A DNA stretch of 64,000 nt, taken from Rhytidiadelphus loreus (lineage: Eukaryota > Streptophyta > Bryopsida > Hypnales > Hylocomiaceae). The notes under the pieces were generated by a model. The model ran no database searches, was not told where the DNA came from, and was given only the letters and a program-made list of their open reading frames with translations. This document shows positions 2,738 to 18,962 of the stretch, one piece after another (positions within the stretch are counted from its first letter, which is position 1; each line of letters opens with the position of its first letter). The stretch spans positions 29,400,863 through 29,464,862 of the forward strand of contig OX344761.1 of assembly GCA_947034895.1 (NCBI GenBank), in the 5' to 3' direction. A program made the position numbers and the translations under genes.

Positions 2738-2817
2738 TCTCCCGCCGCGGTAGCTCGGTGGCCTGTGACCGACAACCTCAATTCCGGCGGCAAGGGTTCG
2801 ACCTTTGGGCCGTCGCC
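2738..2817 (+). repeat. Possible tRNA-derived SINE, 5' half
   Basis: TAGCTCGGTGG (2751-2761) fits a Pol III A box and GGTTCGACC (2795-2803) fits a B box. They are 33 bases apart, as in tRNA genes. No cloverleaf with matching acceptor arms is apparent, so a tRNA-derived SINE is preferred over a tRNA gene. The CACTA transposon interrupts it at 2818. The sequence resumes at 18848 and runs into a T-rich tail at about 18963-19010, which would give a SINE of roughly 250-270 bases. The assignment is inferred. Confidence 0.35.
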
Positions 2818-2829
2818 CACTACAAGAAA

Positions 2830-3770
2830 GTTGGAGTTAATGTGACTGGCACATACGACTGCGCAGAAGTTGTATTCTAGTCGCATGACTAGTATACAAC
2901 TGCAGGCCCTGCAGTCATATTAGTTGAGTCGTATAGCAGTCACGAGTGCTATTCTATTAGCACCATCCAGATGAGGGCAGACGGAGAAGGGATGACAGAA
3001 GGGATGAGACATCCACTGGCCGAAGCTGAGGTGGACAAGGGCGTGTGCCCGGCACACGCCGTTTGAACGTAGACATGGCAGGTGCTCATTCGCCGGAGTT
3101 ACTTGGAGTGCCAGTCGCGGCGCAGTCACTTTCTAGTCATGGTACAGATTTAGACAGCCAATCGACTTTTGACACGTAGCACGGTACAAAGTAGGCGTTC
3201 GGGGGTGTTTACCGGTGTCTTGGAAGGGTATTATCAGTGCCACGCCAGTCACTTTACAGTCATGGGTAAGTTGTGAGGCAGTTGCGCTGAAGTCGCCAAA
3301 ATTGATAGGGGTGGGCAACGCAGAGTGGTGAAGTCACGGATCAGTCACGGAGTAGTGATTGTGCTGTATTGTTAAAATTGCTATGCAGTCGTGTAAAATC
3401 ATCTTATTGTGCAGGATACAGCAGTGACTGCAAGTTGCCGAACTACACAGCACTAGCGCAGCCAGCCAGTCAATTTCCCATTCAAGCATACTAGTGGGCA
3501 ATTTCTACATGCTAACACAAATAAAGTAATAACACGGATGACCTCAGTGCCATAGACATACCCACAACCTCATACTCAAAATTGTTGGTGGAACTTTGAT
3601 TTCATAGTCATTAGATTTCAGCAAGAAAAAATTGTGAATTGGGAGAGTTTAGAAGGAAAATGTTCTACTCCTATGAACATGGCCGTTTTACCACCCTCCA
3701 GGCTATACTACAATGTACACAAACTATAGGTGACCGCCTCCCTTGCCAAAGGGAGTACAAAAAACAGGCC
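2830..3770. promoter_or_regulatory. Left subterminal region of the CACTA element
   Basis: No coding evidence. Motifs of the type GTGACT, AGTCGC and AGTCAC recur in both orientations, for example near 2845, 2880, 2930, 3120, 3250, 3340 and 3420. In En/Spm, the TNPA protein binds short subterminal repeats, and these motifs are the obvious candidates here. Binding is inference. Confidence 0.55.
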
Positions 3771-4037
3771 TCACGCAACCAACTTCAAGTTCTTTTCCCC
3801 CCACATTGCGGCAGAACCCTTGACATCTTCAATCATATATTGATCTCCTTTTTCGTTGGGAAACATCAAAGAAACACCCTTCTGCAAAACAACGCGCACG
3901 TCTATCCTCCACCACCCCCTTGGGATATCTTGACCGTGGAATTGGTGTTCACCCAGCACACCGCTGATGGTCCCCAACGCCACTTTCAGCTTCACAACCC
4001 TCGGATTCATGAGAAATACTTCATCCCCGACCTTGAA
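3771..4037 (-). CDS. Last exon: Tnp1/En/Spm-like C-terminal domain
   Basis: The exon follows a strong acceptor (a pyrimidine-rich tract then GCAG at 4038-4041) and enters in phase 0 with F-K-V-G-D-E-V-F-L. The 88 residues match the pattern of the plant Tnp1/En/Spm C-terminal domain: V-G-D-E-V at the start, G-x-I-x-G-V-x-G in the middle, H-G-x-D-I-P-x-G-W, then V-S-L-M-x-P-N and a closing V-x-G-S-A-x-x-W. In this family the domain ends the TNPA/TNP1 protein. The frame stops at 3771-3773. Confidence 0.75.
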   Translation of the reverse strand, partial: FKVGDEVFLMNPRVVKLKVALGTISGVLGEHQFHGQDIPRGWWRIDVRVVLQKGVSLMFPNEKGDQYMIEDVKGSAAMWGEKNLKLVA

Positions 4038-7000
4038 CTGCAAAGGAAACCATAGTAGCAGTTCTTGAGAGTCCCAAACCCTGTAGAGCAAAATCCAGTG
4101 TTCTATCGCAAACGCACCCCCTAAAAAGGTTACTGGCACGTCACTCGCCAACAACTATACTATGACTTGATTCTTCTACCCAGAACTGCTGCATGACTGT
4201 AACGTGACTTGCCAGCAACTATACTATGACTTGATTCTTCTACCCAAAACTTCCGCATGATTGGAACGTGACTCGCCAGCAACTATACTATGACTTGATT
4301 CTTCTACCCAAAACTTCCGCATGACTGGAACGTGACTCACCAGCAACTATACTATGACTTGATTCTTCTACCCAAAACTGCCGTACGATTGGCAAGTGAC
4401 TAAAATTTCACTTAGACAATAAAATAACAGGAGAAGCGGATTGGCAGGAGATTTTCCAAGTACTAGAGCTTACCCTAAGTGGATTGGCGTCCTTGTTTGC
4501 CGCAGCCTTTGCCCTCGTTGACGGCTTTCTAACCTGCACACACACACCAAATCCATCAGACATTCAGCAAAAGGGCAAGTGAGGCAAAGCAGACCAGTGG
4601 ACAGTGGGCACGTGCTGTGCCCGCCCCCTCACCTGCGACAACCTGAAGGAAGTCATAGGCAGAGCTAGTGCGGCGTTTGTTAAGCATCTGGGCCACAGAG
4701 TCGGTGACAATTTCGGGATACTTTGCACGGAAGCTTGGGATGTCCGGACTACAAGAGAGGGCTTCCAACAAGGGCCATAGGTAGCATTTCAAGTAGTCTT
4801 TGTCGTCCGCCAGTATGCGCAGCCACTTCACGTAGAAAGGAGCAGTGATGAGAACATTTGTAGACGGATTGCAAGCAACTCTAGAGACTTTGCTATCTAC
4901 AATCACGGTATTCAGAGCTGAAAATTCCGGCCACCTGTCGTACACCTTTGATAAGTTCTTCTCCCCCGATGCCGGGTTGTCGTCTTCTCCCTCCGGTCCG
5001 CCACAATGCTTACCAGCCCAAGAAAACAACGGGACTTCAAACAGCCCTGTTAGACCGGCAAGCATAGTGGGGACTACGTCACCCATGTAGGACTCACTGT
5101 TGCTACCCCAAAAGGCTACATTGAAATGGAGAAAACATCTAGAGAGAAAGGGTTTCAACCAAGGCCTCATGACCACTCTCCTCACATCCGTCTTTGTGGT
5201 CCCATGGATTCTACTATTAGGATTTCGCCCTCCAAGCAAACTGCAGTCCACCAAAGTGCCATGAACATTGAAGACCAATAATTTTTGCCTTGGACAAATC
5301 CGGCTGCGAACGACTTCAGAAAGTGACAAGGAAAGCCTCGCCTCAATTGACGTGCAATGAAGGACGTCTGAGGGGGCTGTTACCTTGTTTGGAGACTTTG
5401 CCGCCTTCTTCCCTTTTTTCTGCACAGGATCCGGCCGGACCAGTGGTACAGACTCCTCTGGAGAGGATTCAGCGCCATCATGATGAACTTCTGGGGGCAC
5501 ATCCGGTAAACCTTGGGACAGCACTGGAACTTCCGAAGGCAGGTGTGCGTCGTCTCCACCCTCCTCGGCGGTTACCTCGTCCTCAGCATGGGTTCCCTGC
5601 ATTACAACAATGGGCGCTAGAGCAGACGTGGCAAGGGTGACTGCTTCTAATGCAATCGGATTGACACTTGCATCTTTGACAGGCTTCGACAACTCCTCTG
5701 CAGCATCTGCAGCATCTGTGGCTACGAACACTTCTGCGCAATCCGCAATGTCAGTAAGCCCTCCTCCACTGGCGGGTGTCATTGTATCAACGAATTCAGT
5801 CGTGGCGCACGCTGGTTTAGCTGGCGGGCTTTTCCGTCCCTTCAACTTCCATTGCGGTGGAATTTGCGCAACCTGCGTGAGTGGCGGATCCTTCATGGAC
5901 ATCTCAGATTCAGAAGAAAGCGTCACTTCTTCATGCCGGGCGGTGACAATCTGTTCAGTCACTGGTTTAGGTGGTTTACAGATTGCTGCTGAAGCACCCT
6001 CCTGCAGCACCAAGTCACCTTTAGCAGGTATACCCTCTGTTGCGGTAGGAAGCACCCCTGCAGCATCAAATGCTTTCTGACCACGGGGTGATTGATGCTC
6101 TAGCGCGGAGTGAGTTATGGACGGGCTGCCGTCGTCTCCCATGTCGGACTTCCGCATGAATTGTTCGAACATGGTCCTCATTTCGGCTGTGGTCACCATG
6201 ATCTGCCCAAACTTCCCGTCCACATCCTTCTTCAATTCGTCAATTTGCCGCTGCAGACTACAATCCTGTACAACCCCACCCTGAGTATCAAAATACACGC
6301 ACCCTGACATTATGGTCCCCGAATCACCAACTGCAAGTTTCCTCTTAGTCGTGACAAAGTCATCAGTCACCATGTGGTGACTAGTGCGCGACTACACATA
6401 GACTTATAAGTGACTAAAGCACTACTTTTTGACGACTACGATGCGACTCCATAGCGACTTCATTGCGACTGAGGGATTAGTTCCCAGTGACTATGACGCG
6501 AGTCCGTGCCAATTCTAAGCCACTTCTGGATTACTGCCTGACAAGGCACCACCTAAATGGTTAAGGTCTAGAAAGCAATGCATGGGACCGACTTACACAT
6601 TCCTCATACTTAGTGTGTGTGTCCACTTGTAGTTCACATTGGCTAAACGCAATTAACATGTCCCAAGCTAACCAGAGTAAATCAACTCACTTAGACCTCT
6701 AGAAGGAGTACATGGGGCAGATTCACACATAACATAGATACGGCCATAACTCTTACATAAATCAGACATACCTCAGACAAAAGGAAGACTCACATTCAAA
6801 TTCACCCTCACATCACTTACACTCAGATTCCATCTCCCTAGCTAAACTCAGACTCAACGGACTTGGGGAGGACTCACGCTTAACCGACACTCACACATAA
6901 CTCAAAGAGAACTCATTGACACAACGAACACTACATGTTCAGATTCAAAAAAGCACCTACAAAGTCGAAGCAAAACCGGAGTCACTAGAATGCGACAACG

Positions 7001-8864
7001 GGATTACTTCCCGGTCACTAAGACACGACTCTACAGAGACAGTGGATTATTAGCCACCAGTAATCCACTAGCCAACAGTACTCACGACATTTCTTTCCTG
7101 AGCAATTTGAGAATGGCTAAACTCACCTACAAGGTCAGCGAAAACAAGAATAAAACAACTCACTTGAGTTTGAAGGGGATAACTCAGATTCACATAACTC
7201 ACAGTCCAAGGTAATGAGGACTTACGCATAACTAAGAGAAACACATAACTTGGATAAGAACCATAGAAACGTCCCATGGAAAGAGGGCGGTTTAAGGGAA
7301 CGACAAACATACCACTTTCTGGGTTAGGCTCTCCACGTTGCTGCTCCGCACAACATCTGCAATGTCGGTAATCGTTGGGCTAGTGGACCGTATTCTTCTC
7401 TGCACACAATCACAGAAGGAATCCTCACATTGCAATTCCACTTCACATAGCCAAGACGGAGATTATTGGCGGCTACAAATACAAAAACTTGAAGAAAAGT
7501 GTAAGCATAACTTCACTTCACAAGGAAGCTCACCAGTGAAGCTTCCACCCCCGCTTTGCCTTTCCTGCCTACCGCACTAAGACCCTTTACGCCTTGACGT
7601 GCCACGGCCATCTTGGCAGACTTCTCCTTCTGGGCAGGAGTGTTCCAGTACACAATTAGGCGTTTCCATTGCTCGGGGTCAATGTGCACCGGGGTTTGGG
7701 CGTTGTCCGGGTCTCGACAGCCACTCGACAGCCACTTACTTTTCAAACGAGACCTCTCCGACTTCATAAACTTTGTCACTGTCGTCCTAAAGGCAGCCAT
7801 GCTCAAAGGTGACCCAACATACTCAAATTCATTGTCCAAAAGGTCTCGCAACTTCTGTAGAGTGTGGGGCTTGTGCTTTGACCAATCCAGGATGCTCATA
7901 TCCAATACTTTCGGAACAAAATTCCGCACTGCCAGGTCCCACGCATTCTTCCCTGAGCAACCAGGATCTACTTCGCCTCCGTCAAGCACTTCTACAAAGT
8001 TGGGTTTAGGGGGACCCTCCGGGGTCTCTTCTCTCCCGAATTCATAAGCTGTTCGCTTCTTTCGTCTAATTGTGTGCTCAGGTTGCCGCTCCACTGCCTC
8101 CCCTCGAGCCTACAAAGAGGATCGTCCATGGGCATTCCACAGAGGTTGTTGTGGGGGTGCCGGCTTTGGTAGCCACTGTCCAGGTTGCCACTGCCACCCT
8201 GAATCCTCATACTCGTGAACTGCTGGGGGTGGCTGCAAAGACGGCCTACTTGCAAGCAACTTCCTCGGTGACTTGAAGGTAGGGGCAGGTTTGTGGCGCT
8301 TTGCCCTTCTGTCGACCAGGGGCTCCACTTCCTCCATCTCTTCACTACTGGAGTCGAACAATGCATCCTCTGCAACAGCGCACAACATAGAATGAGCGAC
8401 CTTGCAAGACTACGAATGTCCTAACCTACACAGGCACCCATTTGGTTTACGGTGGAGGCAGACCTGTCCCACAATTGATCCCATGCATCCACAGCTGCGC
8501 AAAACAAATCAAACCCGTGCTTGGGGTTCATCACGTTAGATTATGCACAAAAGTGCGTATTCAAGGCATCGACCCCACCAAACGATGTAGGCGATTCCGA
8601 TTCTGGGACTCCCCACTACGGGATTATGGAATTTGGGTCACACTTCTACCTCTAGAAGTCCACGCACGAAAGCAGTCGAGATCAACCCAACACCCTAACA
8701 CCCTTCAAAGAAAGCACGAGACAATTTTTACCTGCCACAGCGTCTTCCAACTTTGAAAGTCGCTCTACATGTGTACAAGCTATAGCTAAATGCATCATAC
8801 CTCTTGCGATGGCCTCTTCATTGGACCTCGTCGCCTCTGAGGAGGAATTCTGGTCGCTGCTCAT
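3771..8864 (-). CDS. TNPA-type transposon protein with embedded FCP1-like HAD domain (six exons)
   Basis: My reconstruction is complement(3771-4037, 4474-4533, 4643-6343, 7313-7399, 7534-8369, 8732-8864). All junctions are GT..AG and the phases agree: the exons sum to 3084 nt, an exact multiple of three (1027 codons plus stop). Domains in order: a Ser/Glu-rich N-terminus; an En/Spm (Ptta) DNA-binding-type domain in exon 2; a coiled coil and a long low-complexity linker in exon 4; an FCP1/NLI-interacting-factor-like HAD domain in exon 4; a Lys/Ala-rich 20-aa exon; and a Tnp1/En/Spm C-terminal domain (Transposase_23-like) in exon 6. One TAG at 8110-8112 interrupts exon 2 in frame. The protein would bind subterminal motifs of the element. 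An HAD insert in a TNPA-type protein is not something I know from the family. Exon edges are inferred by eye, and exon 4 could use another acceptor. Confidence 0.7.
4140..4400 (-). repeat. Four tandem 64-bp repeats in the last intron
   Basis: CAACTATACTATGACTTG starts at 4152, 4216, 4280 and 4344, an exact 64-base period. Each unit also holds an ACGTGACT or AAGTGACT word like those in the element's subterminal regions. The array lies in the intron between the last two predicted exons of the TNPA-type gene. Confidence 0.85.
4643..6343 (-). CDS. Large exon with coiled coil and FCP1/NLI-like HAD domain
   Basis: This 567-codon exon begins with a heptad-like helix (about 6149-6262) similar in place to the coiled coil after the DNA-binding domain in other En/Spm proteins. 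A long acidic, Ala/Pro/Ser-rich linker follows. From about 5281 down to 4706 it resembles the FCP1 homology (NIF) domain: a beta strand plus L-V-F-N-V-H-G-T-L-V, then R-P-W-L-K-P-F-L, V-A-F-W-G-S-N-S, E-K-N-L-S-K-V and V-I-V-D-S. FCP1-like enzymes use a D-x-D-G-T motif to dephosphorylate Ser in the RNA polymerase II C-terminal tail. Here both Asp positions are replaced (N and H), so catalysis is unlikely and a binding role is more plausible. Read without splicing the frame runs 4556-6373. No host gene of this type is nearby. Confidence 0.75.
6380..7312 (-). promoter_or_regulatory. Intron rich in CGACT/GTGACT motifs
   Basis: No coding evidence in this stretch between predicted exons 3 and 4. 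From 6380 to 6500 the words GTGACT, GCGACT and their complements occur about every 12 to 20 bases, and again near 7010-7050. They are the same words as at the element's termini. They may serve as extra binding sites for the TNPA-type protein or in autoregulation. That role is inference. Confidence 0.45.
7313..7399 (-). CDS. 29-codon linker exon of the TNPA-type gene
   Basis: The exon lies between a TGTGCAG acceptor (ending at 7400) and a GTATG donor (7312 downward). Both junctions are phase 0, so it links the DNA-binding exon to the coiled-coil exon in frame. It is Ser/Thr/Val-rich and has no recognised motif. The call rests on splice signals and phase. Confidence 0.5.
7534..8369 (-). pseudogene. 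En/Spm (Ptta) DNA-binding-domain exon with in-frame TAG
   Basis: The exon encodes an acidic, Pro-rich lead (F-D-S-S-S-E-E near the start), then a basic patch R-R-K-K-R and the En/Spm-type transposase domain, with K-S-K-W-L-S, D-P-x-x-W-K-R-L-I-V-Y-W and K-S-A-K-M-A-V-A-R as recognisable landmarks. Open frames on both sides of a single TAG (8110-8112) are in the same frame, so one base change separates them; CAG to TAG is the simplest. The donor is CTG/GTGAGC at 7534/7533. The family uses this domain to bind repeats in the element. Whether the stop is read through or has killed this copy cannot be told from sequence. Confidence 0.7.
8732..8864 (-). CDS. First exon of the TNPA-type gene
   Basis: The exon starts at the first ATG in frame (8864) with M-S-S-D-Q-N-S-S-S-E and ends at a CAG/GTAAA donor in phase 1, matching the next acceptor at 8370. 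The frame stays open upstream to about 9050 with an Arg/Lys-rich stretch but no ATG, so a longer N-terminus from an upstream exon is possible. Start choice is uncertain. Confidence 0.5.
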
Positions 8865-11800
8865 TCTAGAGTCGTCGCCCGCCACTCCACGACTGCGCTT
8901 CCCCCTCGCGCTCCGTCCTCGGAGGCCCCGCTGCCTGCTACTCCTACGTACAATCTTTTTACCCTTCTCTCGGCAAATTGGACCCTCACGGTTGCGCTTC
9001 TTCCCGGAGTCCTGATCACTATGCGGCGCAGGTGGTTTAGGGTTCAGCAGGTTTTAGAATACAATGGGCAAATTGAAAAAGGAGACGTACAAGCGCAAAG
9101 GAAATCAAAACAAGCCACCTACAAGGAGAAGACAAAACCACAAACAAAAAAGTGCAAGCGCTAGGGTTACGCCTGCCTCTTCAAGCGAGAGAGACGCACT
9201 TGCTTGGCCAGGCTGCCACCAATTCCACGTGGCCGAATGGCGAGGAATGGGGTTTAAGGCAATTCCTCACTGACTGCACTCCGACGCTACTTCCCCACGA
9301 CTGCTTCGTCACTCACATGAAGTCACACAGAAGATACACATCGGACGTTGAGACTCCTGCACAACTCCGGCACGACTGCACAACTCCTACACGACTGCAC
9401 AGTGCCCAAGGCATATGGGCGGCGCATTTTCCGAAACTAATAAACCGTGAACCCTACCACAACGTCTCCTGCAGAGACATACGGTTTGCACCATGGCTGT
9501 GCACAGAAGCACACGCGTAGGCCAAGCAAGAGAGATGGCTAAGGAGGAGGTTTCGGATGCGCGGCCAGTTTGGGGAGTCTATGCTCCACGTCAAGGCGGA
9601 GCATGCGGCGTGGAGGACACAGTGACTGCGATCAATTCCGTGCGCCTACAAATGCAGGGACAACTGAATTACAAACCAAGGTAAAGAAGAAACTCACGGC
9701 GCCAGTTGCGAGCTGAAAAGAGGCCCGAATTTTGCTTGATTTTCCGCCACACGCTTGTCTCGCGCCAACTCGTACTCTCCCTTCTCCACTGCTGGAGACT
9801 CCATGCTGCGCTCCGACCACAATTTCTTGTCCACTGACCACAATTTGCTCCCTGCTTCCTGCACAGGTAAAACAACAAATTGTTTGGAGCAAAGCACCGT
9901 GGAAGGTAGGCGTAGCCGCGTAGGAGCTGCACGGAGGAAGAAGGTCGATGCCGTCGTCTAGAGTTTCAAAACACAAGGCCTCGTCTTCCCTTGTATTCAG
10001 ACCGCTTCACAAAGTGTGATTTGTGCCGCCTGAAGCAGGTGTGCATTTTTATCACAAGTAGGTACATCAGGTAGTGAGCTTGATTACGGGCCCGATTTGG
10101 CGGCTGGCATTCAATTGCAAAGTCATGCAATAACTGATGACTTGTCCACGACTGAAGGAAGGATTTAGGGGCAGTATTTGCTGTTGGTTGTGTTATGATC
10201 GTGATTCATGAAGTGATAGGGTGACCCTTGACTCATGAAGCGTATAGATCCGTTCAGGGAGGACACCCTATTTACATAAATTCACTAGATGCGTGTGTGC
10301 TAATCTGGAGACTTAGTGAGGACCCTAGTGGTGGATGTCGGACTGTGGACCCAACCCTCCTTTAGGACGACTTGAGATAGTCACGCGTAAGTCGCATTCA
10401 ACACTACGGTGACTTCCTCGCGACTCAAAGGTGACTGTGAGTCTGTGACGCGACTCAAACGTGACTTCCTAAACCCTGAACCCCCAGAAGAACGGCGTAG
10501 GTCGTCTTCAATTTCTCCACGCTATCAGATGTGGTCGATGTCGTCACATTCAGTTGTTGAATCTGAACGCGTGTGATGTGACAGGGGTGTCTGAGGACAC
10601 AACGGATCTCGTAATGAATATGAATGGCATTGGTGGTTTAGGATTTGAATGCAAATTACACCTCAAATTAACACAAAAATGTTGAAAGAATACCAGGCAA
10701 AGAGCTGAAGGCCCCCGTTAGGTCCTTCCTATGAATGTCACCTAAAAAAGTGAAGTCATTCTAGATGGGACGTCTACACCAATAATTCGTCAATTGAGCT
10801 CTGGAATGGAATCGCGCAACCGGGGATCTCGGATCTTCAATGTCTTGAGACCGTAGCTACTGTGAACCCCTAGAATTTTCCACTCACAATATGCTCCTCT
10901 AGTTTGTTCTTGCACAGAGGAACTTCCCCCTCACTTGGCAAAGTCGTGGAGAAGTACAGACCCTAAAGCCATGACTGTAGAGTAACTGATGCAGTCATCT
11001 TGGAGTGACTTTCAAGTGTGCGACGTTCTCGACATAAGAGTTTCAGGTACTAGGAGCACTTTGTGATCTATCCATTTCTGTGCTTAGAACTAGAGTCGTG
11101 ATCAACCCTAAACCACCTGCTTTTGTCACCAGTTCGTGAAAGAAATGCCCAAACATCCAATGCTGAGGGCCGCAGCGCTGCTCCGTAGGAAGATACGTAG
11201 ACAGATCACACTGGAGGTTGAGGATGATGTACGCTTGCAAGAGACGGCCAAAGCTACGATTGTCCCCCCCTTTATTGCAACATCCGTAAACAGTATTGTC
11301 CACCCCCCCTCCCACATGAAACCACCTACAAAAGTTCAGTCACTAAGTCTTGACGCAGTGTGTGTACAACCAAATGCCCACCTTGAACCTCTAAGTGAGC
11401 TTGAAGTTAGGAAGCGCCTTCCGAAAGTCAATTACAGGCATATCTTTGAGTAGTTAGAATTTGAGGGGGGGGGAAGAACCTGTCAAATCCGACGCAACAT
11501 TTTCAGGTCCGTGCCAAGAGGAGGATCTCTCTGTAGCTGATTTGTTTCAAATTTGATATTAAATAAAAAAGGGACGGCACTATTGTCTTTGTTTTGTTTC
11601 ATATTCACTGTGCTCCCCCTGCAATGTCGCACCTAAAGCGCATGTGCTGTCCCAATACTCATGGCCATGCGCACGTACGTGAATTATGGAAGTCAGCTTC
11701 TTAGGGTGCAATTGAGACCCACGCATGTGCCCACTACCTCCCCTCCCCTTGGAATTTGGTTGACAACGCCACGATTAGCGGGCAACCCGTCCCCAGTCAT

Positions 11801-11955
11801 GACCGAGTCATCTTCAAGTCACTCATAAGTTGCATAGGAGTTCCGTGTATGGCCGTCACTACATTTGCACTTACAACTCATTACCTGCGGCATGGCATAC
11901 TTATTTGTGACATGGTTTTCTTATCTGTACCCATGCAACAAACGCAGGGAAGCTA
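8865..11955. promoter_or_regulatory. Divergent intergenic region of the CACTA element
   Basis: The two element genes diverge from here, so it should contain both promoters. GTGACT/CGACT words are dense near 9290-9400, 10380-10470 and 10980. An open frame at 11136-11453 (105 codons, Arg-rich N-terminus) has no family resemblance and is not called. No other repeat, RNA or coding signal is seen. Confidence 0.4.
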
Positions 11956-11988
11956 TTGGATTTGGAGTTCCTGAACCTTGTGGCAGTT

Positions 11989-12294
11989 ATGGATCCAATA
12001 CTTCCATGCAGTGACAGTCGGCGGCAGCGGCTGCGGGATGACAGGCTGTGGAGTAGAGAGCTCCGGAGGGCTTCCGAGCACCACTTGAAGAGGTTGGCTT
12101 GTTCGTGCAACAAATGCCGTGGAGGAAGGAAGTTACTTATTCGTAACGTGAAAGAGCACCTTCTCCGAAATGGCAGACATCCAAGCTGTCGGATTTGGAG
12201 AGGTCCAGGTGACAGGGACTCTTCGGACAAAGAATGGGAGCAAGAATTTTGGGGACCAACGGTGGCAGAAGCGGTTGAGGTTGACGCTGTCGCA
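11989..12294 (+). pseudogene. tnp2 N-terminal exon (transposase-associated domain)
   Basis: The translation has C-S-C-N-K-C, then V-K-E-H-L-L-R-N-G and a following W, as in the transposase-associated domain found at the N-terminus of plant tnp2 proteins (C-x-C-x-x-C, then HL-x-x-x-GF, then Y-x-x-W). The ATG at 11989 opens a 102-codon frame up to the insertion point. An upstream in-frame region without other evidence makes a 5' exon possible. Confidence 0.65.
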
Positions 12295-12431
12295 CTGTAA
12301 ATGCGTACATAGTGTAAAAATGCATAGTAATACATTATTTCCATAGATTTGATTTTAATAATATAAAAATAAAGATGACATCATCCTTAGTAGCTTCAAG
12401 ATGACGCCTTCTCACGATGACATCAGCCATC

Positions 12432-12439
12432 TATATAAG
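12432..12439 (+). promoter_or_regulatory. TATA box upstream of the small ORF
   Basis: TATATAAG lies 70 bases before the ATG at 12509. Just upstream GATGACATCA-type words occur twice (about 12374 and 12416), resembling TGAC-containing bZIP sites. This looks like an autonomous promoter for the small ORF inside the nested insertion. Confidence 0.5.
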
Positions 12440-12508
12440 AATAGGTTATCATCTTAGAATGCCACCAAACTTGAAGTAGTTTCTTTATTGTATGTTATAG
12501 ATTTCAGT

Positions 12509-12967
12509 ATGTCGAATTGGAGGGTTTTTTCTGAGTCTCAGGATGAGGAGCCTCTACCAGAATCGGAGTTTGAGTTTTCGTTATCTCAACTACCGGCTCA
12601 ACCTCTTCAGCCGCTAGGTCTTTCATTATCGCACGAGCGTCCTCAAGATGAATCTGGGCCTTCTCGACCGCCAAAGCAACCCCGTGTGGAGCAGCGATGG
12701 CACGGGAACCTACAGCGTGGAGCTCGAGCACTAGTGATCCTGTTGCAGGTTGGGTGTGTTGAACCTGGTACCCAAGAAGTGACATTCGAAGGGAGTTTTG
12801 AAGGTCTTAACGACGATCAATACTATTGTATGGTCAGGCCTATTAAAGGGAGTCGCGGTCACCAACGATGGTTAGAGGGGCCGGTCAATCCCTTGACAAA
12901 GGCGGATCGTGTTGAGTTTGTTGCTACTACCATCAAGCGAATTCTCAAGTTCTTGAAGATGGAGTGA
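12509..12967 (+). CDS. Hypothetical 152-aa protein, homologous to the ORF at 1933
   Basis: I do not recognise this protein. It starts at the ATG reading M-S-N-W-R-V-F, 70 bases after a TATA box. The first 70 residues are acidic, then Pro/Ser/Gln-rich, and look disordered. The C-terminal 80 residues align with those of the 1933-2601 ORF: R-A-L-V-I-L against R-T-L-V-I-L, a Gly nine residues later, E-G-S-F against E-G-Q-F, P-x-x-PL, and a final helix ending L-K-F-L against L-R-T-F-L. Conservation of the tail with a divergent head indicates a selected domain shared by two elements. It is the only coding content of the nested insertion. Roles such as nucleic-acid binding or silencing interference are guesses. 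Confidence 0.55.
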   Translation: MSNWRVFSESQDEEPLPESEFEFSLSQLPAQPLQPLGLSLSHERPQDESGPSRPPKQPRVEQRWHGNLQRGARALVILLQVGCVEPGTQEVTFEGSFEGLNDDQYYCMVRPIKGSRGHQRWLEGPVNPLTKADRVEFVATTIKRILKFLKME

Positions 12968-13329
12968 AGTTTCTTTGAAGACTTTAGTTTTTTACCTTTG
13001 AGAAGACATTTATTTTATGTTAGTTGTTTGTAGATTTCATTTTGGGTGTTGAAAATAGAGAAAGAAAAGATAGAAAGGAATTAATGAAATAGTTTTTCTT
13101 CTAGGTGAACTTGAAGTGAATTTTCTTTCTAAGATAAAGATAAAGAGATAGTTGTGGGGTCAAATAAGGGCTCAATTATTGATGTGAGAGCTTTGGGAGT
13201 GAGTTAGGGGCTGACCCCACTTGTTTGTGTGGTTAGAGTAGAGATAAGGTGGAGAAAAAAGGGAACACTATTCATCTTCTCTCCCGTTGTGAGTTTAGGA
13301 AGGCCCGAATGTTTGAGGGCCCATTGTGT

Positions 13330-13800
13330 TGTGAATTTGGAGGATTTTGAAATGAAATTTGAAGGTGTTGTGTATCATGGTGTGTAGTTTTCAAATTGAT
13401 CTCACTTGCTTGATTTGGAGTTGTGAAACAAAAGTTGTGCTAGTTTGAGTGGAGGGAGGTTTGTTGCCTTTAAAATTAAGAGGCAGAGACTTCGACCGAC
13501 CATAAAAGACGGACAGGTTCTTGTTTTGCCATGAAATTTGGAGGGAGTGTAGGAAATTGTGTTAGCTTTTCATGAAGCTATCATTCGTTCTGTTTGGAGT
13601 TTGTATGAGAAAGTTGTGAGTGTGGAAGTGAAGGAAGGTCTGCTGCCTTTCCCTTCTCAAGGCCGAAACTTTGGATGGCCATAAAGGTTGGACAGAGTCT
13701 TAGAATTGTATGAAATTTGGAGGAGAAGGAGATGATTGTTTTAGCTTTCCGAAAAGATATCATTTAGTTCATTTGGAGTTATAGATCAACAAAGACACTC
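13330..13800 (+). repeat. Imperfect tandem repeats of about 180 bp
   Basis: Units beginning near 13355, 13530 and 13710 share ATGAAATTTGGAGG, then a TTTGGAGTT word, a TGCCTTT word and GGCCATAAA...GGACAG. Divergence between units is clear. Repeats of this kind occur in long plant LTRs. No coding potential is seen from 12968 to 14250. Confidence 0.5.
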
Positions 13801-14257
13801 ATCCAAAGATCAGCTTGGGAGTTGGAGTTGAAGGAGTTGAAAGACTTGTGTGTTTGTGTGTGTGTGGCTTGTGGCTTTGTAAATTTCGTTTTATTGTTGC
13901 GGGCAGTTTGGTTCACACCAATACTAGCCTCATTTGGTGTTGTGGATGCGACGAAGTGGGGTTAATTGCCCACATGGTCGAGACTTTTATGTTGTTCCTA
14001 CTGGTGAGGCAAGTTTGCTGGTCATCGTGGGTTTGAAATTTAGGATCCAATCCCTCGGACGGCTCAGCTCGTGGTCTGGCCGTCCCGTTTTACACGTCCG
14101 AAGCCCGTGGTTTCTTATCACCCTACCTTAACCCTTGGCCTATTTAGAAACACAACAGGATAGGACAACGAGTAGCAGTTTGAAGATTTGAAGACTCGAA
14201 GATTTGAAGATTCGACAAGTTACAATTTATTTCATTCCCGAGCCATTTCTAGTCGCA

Positions 14258-15780
14258 GCCAGAATCCTCGTGATTTTCCGAGGCAAACTCTCTCTACACG
14301 ACAACGCGAATGTGGACACCGTAGGCATGATCGAACAAGCTTTGGAGCATGAGGATGTACTCGCAGATGCTGCCGATCAAGTGCAGCGTGAGGTGACCGA
14401 TGCGTTTGCCATTGCGGACTCCGTCCATGCAGATTTTGGGGGGAGGATCCAAACGAGGAGGACACAGCGGAGGCGGAGGAGTGCAGGGAGGACCCCAACC
14501 CGCCTACAACGGGTATACCGGTCGCTGGAGACGAGGCCGACGTGGACACGGATGGCCAAGCATTGGAGGATTCCATGCAGCGTTTATATGAAGGTGCCCG
14601 ATCTAGCAAGATTGGAGCCACAGTATTGCTCATGAATCTTTGTACAGTTCACGGGGTGAGCAACCATTGTGCAAATGAGTTGTTCAATATCTTGCACCTA
14701 CACTTTCTTCCACAGAACAACACATTGCCAAAAACATACCATGCAGCGAAGGCCTTGACCACAAAATTAGGTCTCACTTACAATACCATCCACGCATGCG
14801 AGAAAGGGTGCGTGCTATTCCGTGGTGAGCATGCAAAAGCTGTATGTTGCCCTAAGTGTGGAGAACGCCGCTACAAAGACGAAGAGCGACGTGCTCTACC
14901 TCTCAAAGTCTTGCGTCACTTCTCCATCATTCTTCGGCTGAAGCGGATGTTCAAGAGTCCTACCATCTCCAAGTTAATGGTGTGGCATGCAGAGAATTGT
15001 AGTGATCGTGTGGGCGGGGACGGCCTTGTCCGGCATCCATGTGATTCGAAGGCGTGGCGACACTTTGACGAGAATGTGGACCCCAACTTCCAGAATGATC
15101 CCCGGAACACTCACTTTGCGTTGGCAGCAGACGGAGTGAACCCGTTCAAGCAAAATAGGTCGTCTTGGTCCACATGGCCAGTTGTATTGTTGAATTACAA
15201 TATCCCTCCGTGGTTGACTACAAAGAAGTTTTTCCTCCTCCTGGCCTTGTTGATTCCAGGTAAAGAGTCCGTGACGTTGGAGAACTTTGACGTGTACCTT
15301 GCGCCCCTCGTGGACGAGTTGCTGGAGTTATGGGAAGGTGTTCCTGCATACGATGTGACAAAGGATGTAGGCTGCAGGTCATTTCAGTTGCGTGCCATGC
15401 TGTTGTGGACTATCCATGACTTTCCAGGCTACGGCACAGTCGGAGGGTTTTCCCATCAAGGTTATGCGGCATGTCCTTGGTGTGGTGTGGACCTGGGCAC
15501 CGAGCACTCCGTGGAGTTGGGCAAACAGACGTATGCTGGGACAAGGCGATGGTTGCCCGAAGATCATCCGTACAGATCAGCTGCAATGAAGGACCACTTT
15601 GACGGCAAAATGGAAAACAAGCCTAAACCACGTGAAGTTACAGTGGAGGAACAAATAGAGCATGCAAGGAACTGCGAGGCTTGGAGAGCAGCGGGACACA
15701 AAGATGGTGCAACCGGGGACCCTTCAAAGGTGCACGGCGTGAAGCGATTAAGTAGTCTTCACAGATTGCCCTATTGGCAG
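14258..15780 (+). pseudogene. tnp2 transposase, exon with frameshift and core domain
   Basis: From 14258 the frame runs in phase with the N-terminal exon up to a run of six G (14438-14443). The good frame then shifts and continues from there through 14542 to 15780. One extra G would join an acidic stretch (V-H-A-D-F-G-G) to the following E-D-P-N-E-E-D. From 14542 the tnp2 core is clear: C-P-K-C-G, D-G-V-N-P-F, W-x-V-x-L-x-N-Y-N-I-P-P-W, L-I-P-G, C-R-S-F-Q-L-R-A-M-L-L-W-T-I-H-D-F-P-G-Y and A-C-P-W-C-G. The donor GTGAGT follows CAG at 15780. Confidence 0.85.
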
Positions 15781-16053
15781 GTGAGTGCAACTGCTCTGTG
15801 AAGTCCCTTAGGCATGAAGGCAACTTATAGGTGACTTTCAAACTTCTGTCTCAGTGTCTCGTTAGTCACATCAGAGTAGTGTGGAAGTTGTAGTTTATTC
15901 TTGCGGTGACTTCTGAGTGACTTCTACTAGTGCTAGCGGGGGCTCCATTTTCCGGATTCCGTCTTGTCCATGGAATAAATGCCTACTGTTGGCTGAACTT
16001 GTAAACAATTTCAGTGTTGTTACTGACCCACTCCACGCTTTCTGGCTCCGCAG

Positions 16054-16952
16054 AAGCTTCTGATCCGGTATACCTTGGACGTCATGCATTGTGAGATGAA
16101 TCTGTCTAAGAACTTCTTGAAAACAATAACAGGGAAGAAGGATACCGTGAAAGTGAGAAGAGATTTGCAGAGGCGGAATTTGCGCAGACATCTTTGGCTG
16201 ACCCCAAATCCCCATCACCCAGGGAAGATGCTCAAGCCTCGAGCTCCGTATGTTATGTTAGATCACGAATTTGATCAGTTTGCAAGGTGCCTAGAGGCCT
16301 TGAAGACACCATCCAGCTATTCCTCAGACTTGGGCAAGTACATTCGCAAAAAGAACTTTGGCGGCCTGAAGTCGCACGATTATCACGTGTTGATGCAACA
16401 GGTGCTGCCACTGGCACTTCGGGGGCTAATGCAACCTGGGCCATGCCTGGCTGTCATGAGAATGTGCAAGGTGTTCCGACGTTTGTGCACAAAGGTTTAC
16501 AACCCAGCAGACTTTGCATCATTGGAGCTTGATGTTGCAGAAAGCATGGCGTTGTTGGAGATAGAGTTTCCGCCTTCTTTTTTTGACGTAATGACCCACC
16601 TTCCCTATCATCTCGCGAAGGAACTTGACCTCTGTGGACTTGTGAGCGCTCGTTGGATGTATCCAGTAGAACGTTACATGAAGGTCTTGAAAAACCATGT
16701 GAGGAACATGGCATGACCGGAAGCGTGTATGGCGGAAGGATACTTGAAAGAAGAGTGCCTAGGTTTCATAACGGAGTACTTGCAGCGGTTTGAGCCCACA
16801 CAGAGACGTGTTTGGGACAAAGATGAAGAATATGGTGATGCTGAGGAGGTGCTGCAAGGCGCCGGAAGGCCATATGTGATGAGCCCCGAGCTTCGAGATG
16901 TCGCTCACCAATACGTGCTAACAAACGTGTCTGTTATGGAGGATCTGAACGC
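16054..16952 (+). pseudogene. tnp2 transposase, second core exon with TGA
   Basis: The exon enters after a CCGCAG acceptor with K-L-L-I-R-Y, then D-V-M-H-C-E-M-N-L, characteristic of tnp2. It ends in the block R-W-M-Y-P-V-E-R-Y-M-K-V-L-K-N-H-V-R-N, which in relatives continues A-R-P-E-x-x-M-A-E-G-Y. Here the Arg codon is TGA (16714-16716) and the frame then resumes with P-E-A-C-M-A-E-G-Y-L. CGA to TGA is a single C-to-T change. The exon closes at a GTAAGT donor. Confidence 0.85.
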
Positions 16953-17307
16953 GTAAGTCCTTGATACACCATAAACCGCAAGCTAGGTCCCTCGGATTTG
17001 GCAACAGTCAGTGCCGCCCCCTTCATACATCTGTGCCTCTCTCGGGCAATGGCTGTCGGTTCCACACTGTCGGCTCGAAGTCGCCTATGAGTAGTAGGAA
17101 AGTGACTTTTTAGTCACTTCTAAGTCACTTACCAGTCGTACCTCTGTAACTTTTCGACTTCTGCGCAACTGTTTGTAGTGAGATTTTAGTCACGCCAGTG
17201 ACAGCCCCCTACGCAATGTTCTTCAAGTATTTTACTGTTCTCACCCTTTTTGTGTACCTCCTTACTAGTTGCAGACGGAGTTGAGTGTGTTTGGTATGAT
17301 TGTGCAG

Positions 17308-18037
17308 GAAATGGCAAACCGCAGTTGAGCAAGATCCGTCTACTTCGGCGCTCGCAGACTGGATTATGAACACCGTGGATGAAACTGAGTTGAACCTGCG
17401 GAACCCGGATGACATGGATCGCCTCTTGTTAAGCAACAAGCCATCTCGAGTGGCCACTCGATATACAAGGATCTTGGCATTTGGTAACCGGTTTCGGGTT
17501 GAGGATGACACATCTGCTCGAATGGTGAGCTACAACAGCGGTGTTGCATCGGTGTTTTCACTGCCCACCGAAAGTGATGAGGATGCATCAGTTCCATATG
17601 TTGGTGTTCTCCAGGACATATTGCTCTTGGATTACGAAGCACTGCAAACGCCGATCATCCTACTGCAATGTGAGTGGGTGAAGCCCTTCGACACTCGCGG
17701 GAATCCAACATACATCCGAGATGACGACGGCTTTTTGGTTGTCAACTTCCGCCACAAACTTTCTCGCTTGTCGGAGCCCTTCATCTTTCCAAGCCAAGCG
17801 ACGCAGGTTTTCTTCTCCGATGTGGTCGACAGACCGGGTTGGAAAGTTGTCTTACGCAAAGAAGCAAGAGCAAAGCGAGAAGTGGTTGACACCGCAGATG
17901 CCTTCATTAGCACCACAGTGGACAGCGTGGGATTAGTAGCCCCTAGACAGCTTCCTCGAACAGTGCAAAGTGTGAACTTAGTGGGCGCTATAGAGTTGTC
18001 TGTAGAAGACAACTTAGCCGCACAAGTCGCATACTAG
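17308..18037 (+). pseudogene. tnp2 transposase, C-terminal exon
   Basis: After the TTGTGCAG acceptor the phase matches the previous exon. The frame encodes about 243 residues ending in a normal stop. It includes W-V-K-P-F-D-T-R-G and F-I-F-P-S-Q-A-T-Q-V-F-F-S-D-V, resembling the conserved C-terminal region of tnp2 proteins (E-C-x-W-F-D, then P-F-I-x-x-x-Q-A-x-Q-V-F-Y). This part is undamaged. Confidence 0.8.
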
Positions 18038-18844
18038 CATCACTATTCCCTGGACGACTGGCACATAGTGTCGCTCAGTCATTACCAAGTGACGGCGGAG
18101 TCGCGATCAAGTCGTATAGAAGTGACGTATTTTGTATGACTCCGAGACTGGACAGAGGGCCCATTGTGAACTTCCTAAATTCTATTTTGAGAACTCCTTT
18201 AAGCCATGGACTTCCAAACCGCCTCCATTCAGCATAATTGTAAAATGTCCACTTTGCAATTGCTTGACGCACTGCGTAGCGTGGCCGTTTTACAATTTCT
18301 GCAAATTCATGCCACCCCTCTAGCGAGAGCTCTATGAAATAAACAATGCAATAATTACCTGAATGTGGTATCTCAGTGATGGAATCACCTATCTTCGCCT
18401 TTAATAGAACTCCACCCATTGTAGGTGAAGCTCCCATGAGATCCTTAACCCTTTCTTTGTGGCCCTTCTCTTTGGTAGAATCCTACACTAGTGTGTAGTC
18501 GCGTTGAAGTCGCGGTACAGTGTCAATGAAGTGACGGAGAAGTTTCTCAAAAGTCACTACAAGTGGCCCCCTATGACAACCACGCAGTCATCCCCGACTG
18601 TGCAAAACCGCCTGCTGACTGTCATGCCACATCAGCACGTCTTCATTGTTCCCTACAGCAGTCATGGATGAAATGGTACCCCTTAGCTGCAATTCATCTC
18701 ACAGTCACGAGCGCGACTGCTCCGCGACTCGACTCTTGTGCATAAAATGAGCCGGTACAATTAGGGAGGTGCTAGTCGCGTAATAGTCGCATTTTTCTTG
18801 CAGTCACATATTGCAGTCACATATTTGGTAGTTTTCTTGTAGTG
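18038..18844. promoter_or_regulatory. Right subterminal region of the CACTA element
   Basis: Words AGTCAC, AGTCGC and GTGACT recur near 18070-18125, 18490-18560, 18590, 18710 and 18770-18830. The last 60 bases hold two close copies of GCAGTCACATAT. The pattern mirrors the left end and fits a subterminal array bound by the TNPA-type protein. An open frame on the minus strand at 18075-18437 has no support as a gene. Confidence 0.55.
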
Positions 18845-18962
18845 GCCGGGGCGCCACCCCTGAGCTAGTGACAAGGCAAGGAACCGCTACCAGCTACCAC
18901 GACGGGAGACACTTTTGCAAGGGTCAAACCCCCCAAAAGGTCCTCTTGACTCCCTCTTGTGA

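Follow-up and report, generated by a model that had tools for sequence, protein, structure and literature searches.

In the maize transposon En/Spm, the protein TNPA binds subterminal repeats and is required for transposition and suppression, and splicing separates its gene, tnpA, from tnpD (PMC2613891, in the part of that paper available). In the Drosophila P element, a DNA-binding repressor arises when the third intron is retained, with pseudo 5' splice sites taking part (PMC7776569, likewise in part). We analysed a stretch of 64,000 nucleotides (the window, to which all coordinates refer) from the moss Rhytidiadelphus loreus (assembly GCA_947034895.1, contig OX344761.1). It holds a complete CACTA element whose minus-strand gene comprises, in order, TNPA-like N-terminal exons, a coiled-coil and linker exon, a domain of the Pfam family NIF (the FCP1/SCP type of HAD fold) and a C-terminal exon. 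Judging from splice signals and exon phases, we consider it likely (a probability of about two in three) that this CACTA lineage encodes TNPA with two alternative C-termini, of which NIF is one, most likely in a regulatory isoform. A NIF-tailed TNPA would be a new form of this CACTA protein, whereas the mobile element itself is of a known kind. No report of a NIF, FCP1 or HAD domain in CACTA elements was found in the open-licence literature, in agreement with an earlier annotation of the window made from its letters alone (the sequence-only reading), which knew of no TNPA with this architecture.

The element belongs to the CACTA superfamily by its CACTA-starting inverted repeats (CACTACAAGAAA) at both ends, its 3-bp duplication (GCC), its tnp2-type transposase and a reiterated subterminal motif (given below). 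Within it, the minus-strand open reading frame (ORF) 4556–6391 matches NIF (PF03031) over residues 370–549 (5.7e-8, 33 bits, cut-off 21.8), which upholds the earlier claim that a TNPA-type gene carries an FCP1/SCP-fold domain. The domain has the SCP-type HAD fold; a phmmer search of the NIF ORF against solved structures returned no matches. For the catalytic motifs we used 22 aligned proteins (alignment A1, which leaves out 6 of 27 public proteins that are short pieces). Motif I, DxDxT, has become NxHxT (NVHGT), with N, V and G invariant, His in at least 90% and both aspartates replaced in 22/22. The Ser/Thr hydroxyl of motif II is replaced by an invariant Gly, and in the DD of motif IV the first Asp is kept in at least 90% while the second is S, H or N, as placed by the alignment to UBLCP1. 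Because both motif I aspartates are replaced throughout, and from the alignment to UBLCP1, the domain is by its residues a dead phosphatase. An active enzyme of the FCP1 type was rejected, since these catalytic motifs are lost.

We searched the genome (407 Mb) with the NIF exon, obtaining at least 105 listed matches, with 77 of 300 candidates scored and two elements that had been split into two pieces merged. Besides the window, the main relatives among the matches listed are 38 to 97% identical, many of them in open frames of 500–700 aa, and 27 public proteins match at E 0.01 or better. The C-terminal exon lies 3' of NIF on the same strand in all 30 loci fetched (29 places, window included); it was also found in 4/20 further stretches that reach only ~0.7 kb past NIF. 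On the other side, the N-terminal exon was located 563–2,146 bp upstream, in the same orientation as NIF, at 54 of the 63 NIF loci (window included), and nowhere in another arrangement; for the remaining 9 it was not among the best 150 matches listed. The order that the sequence-only reading drew from one copy, with NIF between TNPA-like N-terminal exons and a C-terminal exon, therefore recurs. We compared 48 of the 63 loci (L018 and L021 were dropped as duplicates, the remainder not fetched), which form 23 families at 80% nucleotide identity. Between families, NIF is under purifying selection as judged by the ratio of nonsynonymous to synonymous divergence (dN/dS), 0.16–0.24 in 4 pairs that we picked (dS 1.1–1.6). 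A chance ORF was rejected in view of a family with dozens of copies and of this selection. The same values largely refute the proposal that NIF is a passively captured, functionless host fragment (Pack-type cargo), which we regard as very improbable: CACTA elements are able to mobilise gene fragments, and copies without NIF multiply (see below), but the low ratios come from pairs with dS above 1.1, 23 families have kept NIF, and public relatives carry it at 37–84% identity.

The same genome also holds a second, more abundant multicopy family with NIF (L002–L009 and L066–L068, among the best 150 matches listed). Its copies show a DLNG[IV]L motif where read and adjoin long ORFs without a Pfam match above cut-off; in what was read of them we noted no TNPA exon. 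This is perhaps another mobile element that has taken up the same fold.

One public protein, P0028 (469 aa), joins exons 1, 2, 3 and the coil exon without introns, so that in a relative the N-terminus is probably transcribed together with the coil/NIF exon. The comparison with other families and with P0028 also places the start of exon 4 probably at 6280 rather than at 6343, where the sequence-only reading had put it. P0028 bears as well on whether NIF might be a separate gene of the element, with its own promoter, nested in or beside TNPA. We consider this improbable, since in P0028 the N-terminal exons run on into the coil, with which the same open frame begins, since the loci read show an acceptor and a phase-0 start for this exon, and since the gene order is kept as counted above; in its favour, the NIF frame is long and open by itself, no transcript yet ties it to the N-terminal exons, and the En/Spm transposase ORF sits in tnpA intron 1 (PMC2613891, in part).

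Exon phases were computed for the window and for families B and D; we also read them by eye, for exons 2–4 in 6 loci and for exons 5–6 in 11. The borders are in phase 0 at the end of exon 2, both ends of exon 3, the start of exon 4, both ends of exon 5 and the start of exon 6. The conserved donor behind NIF, GAAG|GTRA (GTGG in L023, GCAG in the window's family), is in phase 1 in 48/48 loci. Joining it to exon 5 breaks the frame, and the family B protein then ends after a short tail, as it does if the intron is retained. Since the phases are incompatible at the sole conserved donor behind NIF, the NIF and C-terminal domains are probably alternative C-termini.

Donors were scored with a matrix built on 27 further donors in these genes, entered by hand (training range -1.5 to 8.8, median ~4.6); on this scale random GT dinucleotides have a median of -6.2 and a 95th percentile of 1.3. 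The scores bear on a competing model, that of the sequence-only reading, in which one protein carries NIF in its middle, the transcript being joined from a phase-0 donor directly after NIF to exon 5 (the basic exon) and the C-terminal exon. Such a donor exists in the window's family (CAG|GTTGTC, after base 4643 and ten bases before the phase-1 donor), the six exons do sum to a multiple of three, and the hairpin described below would mask the competing strong donor. Moreover, a phase-0 GT occurs within five codons before the stem in 42/48 loci, so a fusion of NIF to the C-terminal domain is possible there. However, this GT sits at differing codons among families and is missing in 6 loci and from 3 families wholly; the fusion donors score from -4.8 (window) down to -13.9, so the best slightly exceeds the random median and the worst falls far short of it; and the model leaves the NIF-less copies and the donor before NIF unexplained. 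We therefore consider a single protein with NIF in its middle unlikely. The six-exon sum is correct as arithmetic, but it depends on this weak donor and on an exon with an in-frame stop (8110–8112).

A scan for conserved GT in 16 loci gave 19 columns, of which 8 were present in 16/16 and were mostly plain Val codons of NIF. One column, in phase 0 and located where the linker meets NIF, has the sequence AAG|GTA in almost all of these loci. In codon counts by family (L049 was excluded for a frameshift), the Lys codon is AAG in 21/21, the 22nd family (L029) reading ATG|GT, and the Val codon is GTA in 20/22 and GTT in 2/22. Among 100 conserved degenerate columns this K column ranks first in uniformity, as the V column does among 11 V columns. 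The donor scores -1.6 to 5.3. Splicing here would keep the frame, giving open proteins of 721 aa in family B (with an early end within that copy's C-terminal exon) and 874 aa in family D, and would join the lysine-rich ends of the linker and exon 5 into a single basic stretch. NIF as a cassette exon skipped whole was dropped as a candidate, because coil and NIF share one exon and are separated there by the phase-0 donor.

Copies that have lost NIF bear directly on this donor. In twelve loci the match stops where NIF begins, without a NIF match; we read two of these (L071 and L072) plus a similar place, L074. In L071 and L072, NIF and the hairpin are gone while AAG|GTAATA is kept, followed by an intron of ~131 nt to an in-frame exon 5, and the C-terminal exon is open and 87% identical to that of the window. 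In L074 the donor is kept and the C-terminal exon is broken. The loss in L071 and L072 falls inside the intron that alternative tails predict from the sequence, and is not foreseen if NIF is an essential middle. That a conserved phase-0 donor precedes NIF, and that NIF-less copies keep exactly that donor, argues for alternative C-termini. L071 and L072 are 99.4% identical over 2,794 bp, which suggests a recent spread of the NIF-less form.

The phase-1 donor behind NIF forms the 5' arm of a predicted hairpin, GAAGGTGAGGGG...CCCCTCACCTTC, with a loop of 25–38 nt that does not keep the reading frame (L055 is an outlier, with 53 nt and a poor arm). The 3' arm was recognised in 47/48 loci. L049 has a damaged stem. 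For representatives of 21 of the 23 families, pairing holds in 97.4% of 273 cells, against 52–62% when the partner is slid; covariation is 0.130 against 0.096 in shuffled alignments (0/500 shuffles). In a separate count of pairs per locus, the mean is 11.8 of 12 against 9.6 in shuffles, and this measure showed no excess at the donor before NIF (8.0 against 8.2). From these patterns, an RNA role of the hairpin is likely.

In one copy, L028, the hairpin intron (2835–3093, oriented) is free of stops and in frame with exon 5, and an unspliced reading joins NIF to the basic exon.

If the two tails are alternatives, the pre-mRNA would be spliced at the in-frame AAG|GT (5384|5383) to the basic and C-terminal exons, giving a TNPA without NIF. 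Alternatively, the intron would be retained and translation would run through NIF to a stop soon after it, as the one conserved donor that follows NIF has the wrong phase and lies in a stable hairpin. The second isoform would keep the DNA-binding N-terminus and the coiled coil, and would exchange the conserved C-terminal domain for the dead SCP/FCP1-type fold. It is most likely a regulatory isoform, as the P element suggests by analogy, and would sit on the element's repeats and compete with transposition-competent TNPA. The dead fold could serve as a binding module, possibly for the tail of RNA polymerase II or for another SCP ligand, as we guess from its fold; it could also have a role in targeting transcribed chromatin. 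More tentatively, and with less confidence than in the alternative tails themselves, we propose an RNA-structured splicing switch. In it, a hairpin of 12–13 bp would hide the donor behind a protein-coding intron, and TNPA would receive either its conserved C-terminal domain or a domesticated, dead CTD-phosphatase fold (CTD, carboxy-terminal domain) that would link the element to the machinery of transcription and control its own activity.

Several points weigh against alternative tails and the hairpin, besides the phase-0 GT found in most loci. At the level of transcripts, the decisive splice junctions are spanned by no RNA, P0028 ends in the linker and so does not decide between the tails, and no long public protein with the C-terminal exon was found at E 0.01 among 477 candidates; what either isoform does, we infer. 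As for the donors, the one before NIF was picked out of the eight fully conserved GT columns, it scores towards the lower end of the training range, and its V column is surpassed in uniformity by five other codon columns located away from splice sites. Low scores also occur among the phase-1 donors (L057, -2.8; L059, -1.2), and the matrix is small, with donors chosen by us and the exon-5 donors of L032 and L039 (2/11) excluded. The hairpin count was made without L055 and L057 (2/23 families). Its arms are nearly invariant: 2/13 pairs change on both sides, a number reached by 41/500 shuffles, and slid versions reach 3. At single loci the pairing is not significant, shuffles reaching 10–12 of 12 pairs, and an inverted repeat at the DNA level would look the same. 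Finally, dN/dS of NIF within families is noisy (0.11–1.95 in 21 pairs with few changes).

The profile assignments of the sequence-only reading held in part. NIF lies above its cut-off, whereas the Transposase_24 profile (PF03004) gives weak matches of 21.9 and 20.3 bits, below the cut-off of 28.7, and the C-terminal exon, taken earlier for Transposase_23, matched no Pfam family up to E 10 in any of 4 members (of 14 intended, the others being excluded for stops or for a clean set). The stop in exon 2 of the window copy is absent from three other group-A copies (0/3); L043 has a stop slightly before it and L045 one later, and only L044 is open across the whole stretch read. With this in-frame stop in TNPA and the stop at 16714–16716 in the transposase gene, the window copy looks defective in both genes on its sequence. 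The features of the element are collected in Table 1.

Table 1. Features of the CACTA element and its two genes, in window coordinates.
Feature	Position	Strand	Remarks
Complete CACTA (EnSpm-type) element, 16,027 bp, two divergent genes	2818..18844	.	ends CACTACAAGAAA... / ...TTTCTTGTAGTG and identical GCC flanks
Left target-site duplication GCC	2815..2817	.	from sequence
Right target-site duplication GCC	18845..18847	.	from sequence
Left terminal inverted repeat CACTACAAGAAA, 12 bp	2818..2829	+	
Right terminal inverted repeat, 12 bp	18833..18844	-	
TNPA exon 1 (ATG), 64 nt	8801..8864	-	start conserved in families B, C, D; shorter form as in P0028
TNPA exon 2, Transposase_24-like DNA-binding part	7534..8369	-	PF03004 21.9 bits, below cut-off; single continuous exon in families B, C, D
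Premature stop in exon 2, window copy	8110..8112	-	comparison with three other group-A copies
TNPA exon 3 (REG..SPGITD type), phase 0 at both ends	7313..7399	-	
TNPA exon 4, probable short form, coiled coil and disordered linker, 897 nt, phase 0, ends at pre-NIF donor	5384..6280	-	
TNPA exon 4, probable long form with NIF, to phase-1 donor GCAG|GTGAGG	4633..6280	-	
Conserved pre-NIF donor AAG|GT, phase 0, ~100 bp before Pfam NIF match	5382..5386	-	codon usage across 22 families
NIF (FCP1/SCP-type HAD) domain, predicted catalytically dead	4745..5284	-	
Predicted hairpin 5' arm, covers phase-1 donor	4625..4636	-	
Predicted hairpin 3' arm	4575..4586	-	
TNPA exon 5, short basic exon (GKTQKRE type), phase 0 at both ends	4474..4533	-	
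TNPA exon 6, C-terminal domain and stop	3771..4037	-	3' of NIF in 30/30 loci; without Pfam family
TNPD 5' part, Transpos_assoc-like	11911..12300	+	PF13963 22.7 bits, below cut-off 27.7
TNPD exon with Transposase_21 (tnp2)	14392..15801	+	PF02992 226 bits
TNPD exon with DUF4218, interrupted by stop 16714-16716	16027..16716	+	PF13960, profile 1-77 of 114
TNPD exon with DUF4216	17300..18037	+	PF13952

Exon 1 has two possible donors in the window (8733–8864), the first of which is the one that P0028 uses; the stretch between them encodes a peptide like GMMHLAIACTHV, conserved in families B, C and D. The subterminal motif AGTC[AG][CT]/[AG][CT]GACT, picked by eye from the same element ends in which it was counted, occurs in 17 copies per element end (25 and 21 per kb), against 1.4 expected per end from shuffling. 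It also reaches 13–24 per kb in four of five introns counted (4055–4473, 6344–7317, 15785–16055 and 16957–17308), with none in the fifth (8371–8732) and 0–3.5 per kb in exons. The stretch 12301–14190 is lower in GC and nearly devoid of this motif, and its ORF 12458–12967 matched no Pfam family; it may be an insertion into the transposase gene.

Compared with the described members of the NIF family (SCP1/SCP2, CTDNEP1, UBLCP1, TIM50 and FCP1), the window domain has NxHxT in place of DxDxT and Gly at the motif II Ser/Thr, and has lost the second Asp of motif IV. In Arabidopsis, MAIN/MAIL proteins carry a transposon-related domain with which a phosphatase domain can co-occur; they are host silencing genes, and their domains differ from those of the window. 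If alternative tails and the proposed switch are correct, a DNA transposon carries a domesticated host-type phosphatase fold that serves as an exchangeable regulatory tail, controlled by a donor hidden in a hairpin, and the presence of NIF-bearing and natural NIF-less copies in one genome makes both the role of the isoforms and the switch directly testable. The window element shares with En/Spm tnpA/tnpD of maize, Tam1 and Tgmt* of soybean its CACTA ends, a 3-bp duplication, a tnp2 transposase with a mosaic DNA-binding protein and, if our model holds, alternative splicing within the element (PMC2613891, in the part available). In En/Spm, splicing separates the transposase from TNPA, whereas in the window element it appears to pick the tail of TNPA, one tail being a captured HAD domain; the available part of the same source mentions no HAD domain in En/Spm-type systems. 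The 66-kDa repressor of the unrelated Drosophila P element may work alike, since there too a retained intron yields a DNA-binding regulatory isoform (PMC7776569, in the part available). Intron retention in the P element would then have a plant-type counterpart in the moss element, except that the intron kept in the P element truncates the protein, whereas the one retained here would encode a folded, conserved domain.

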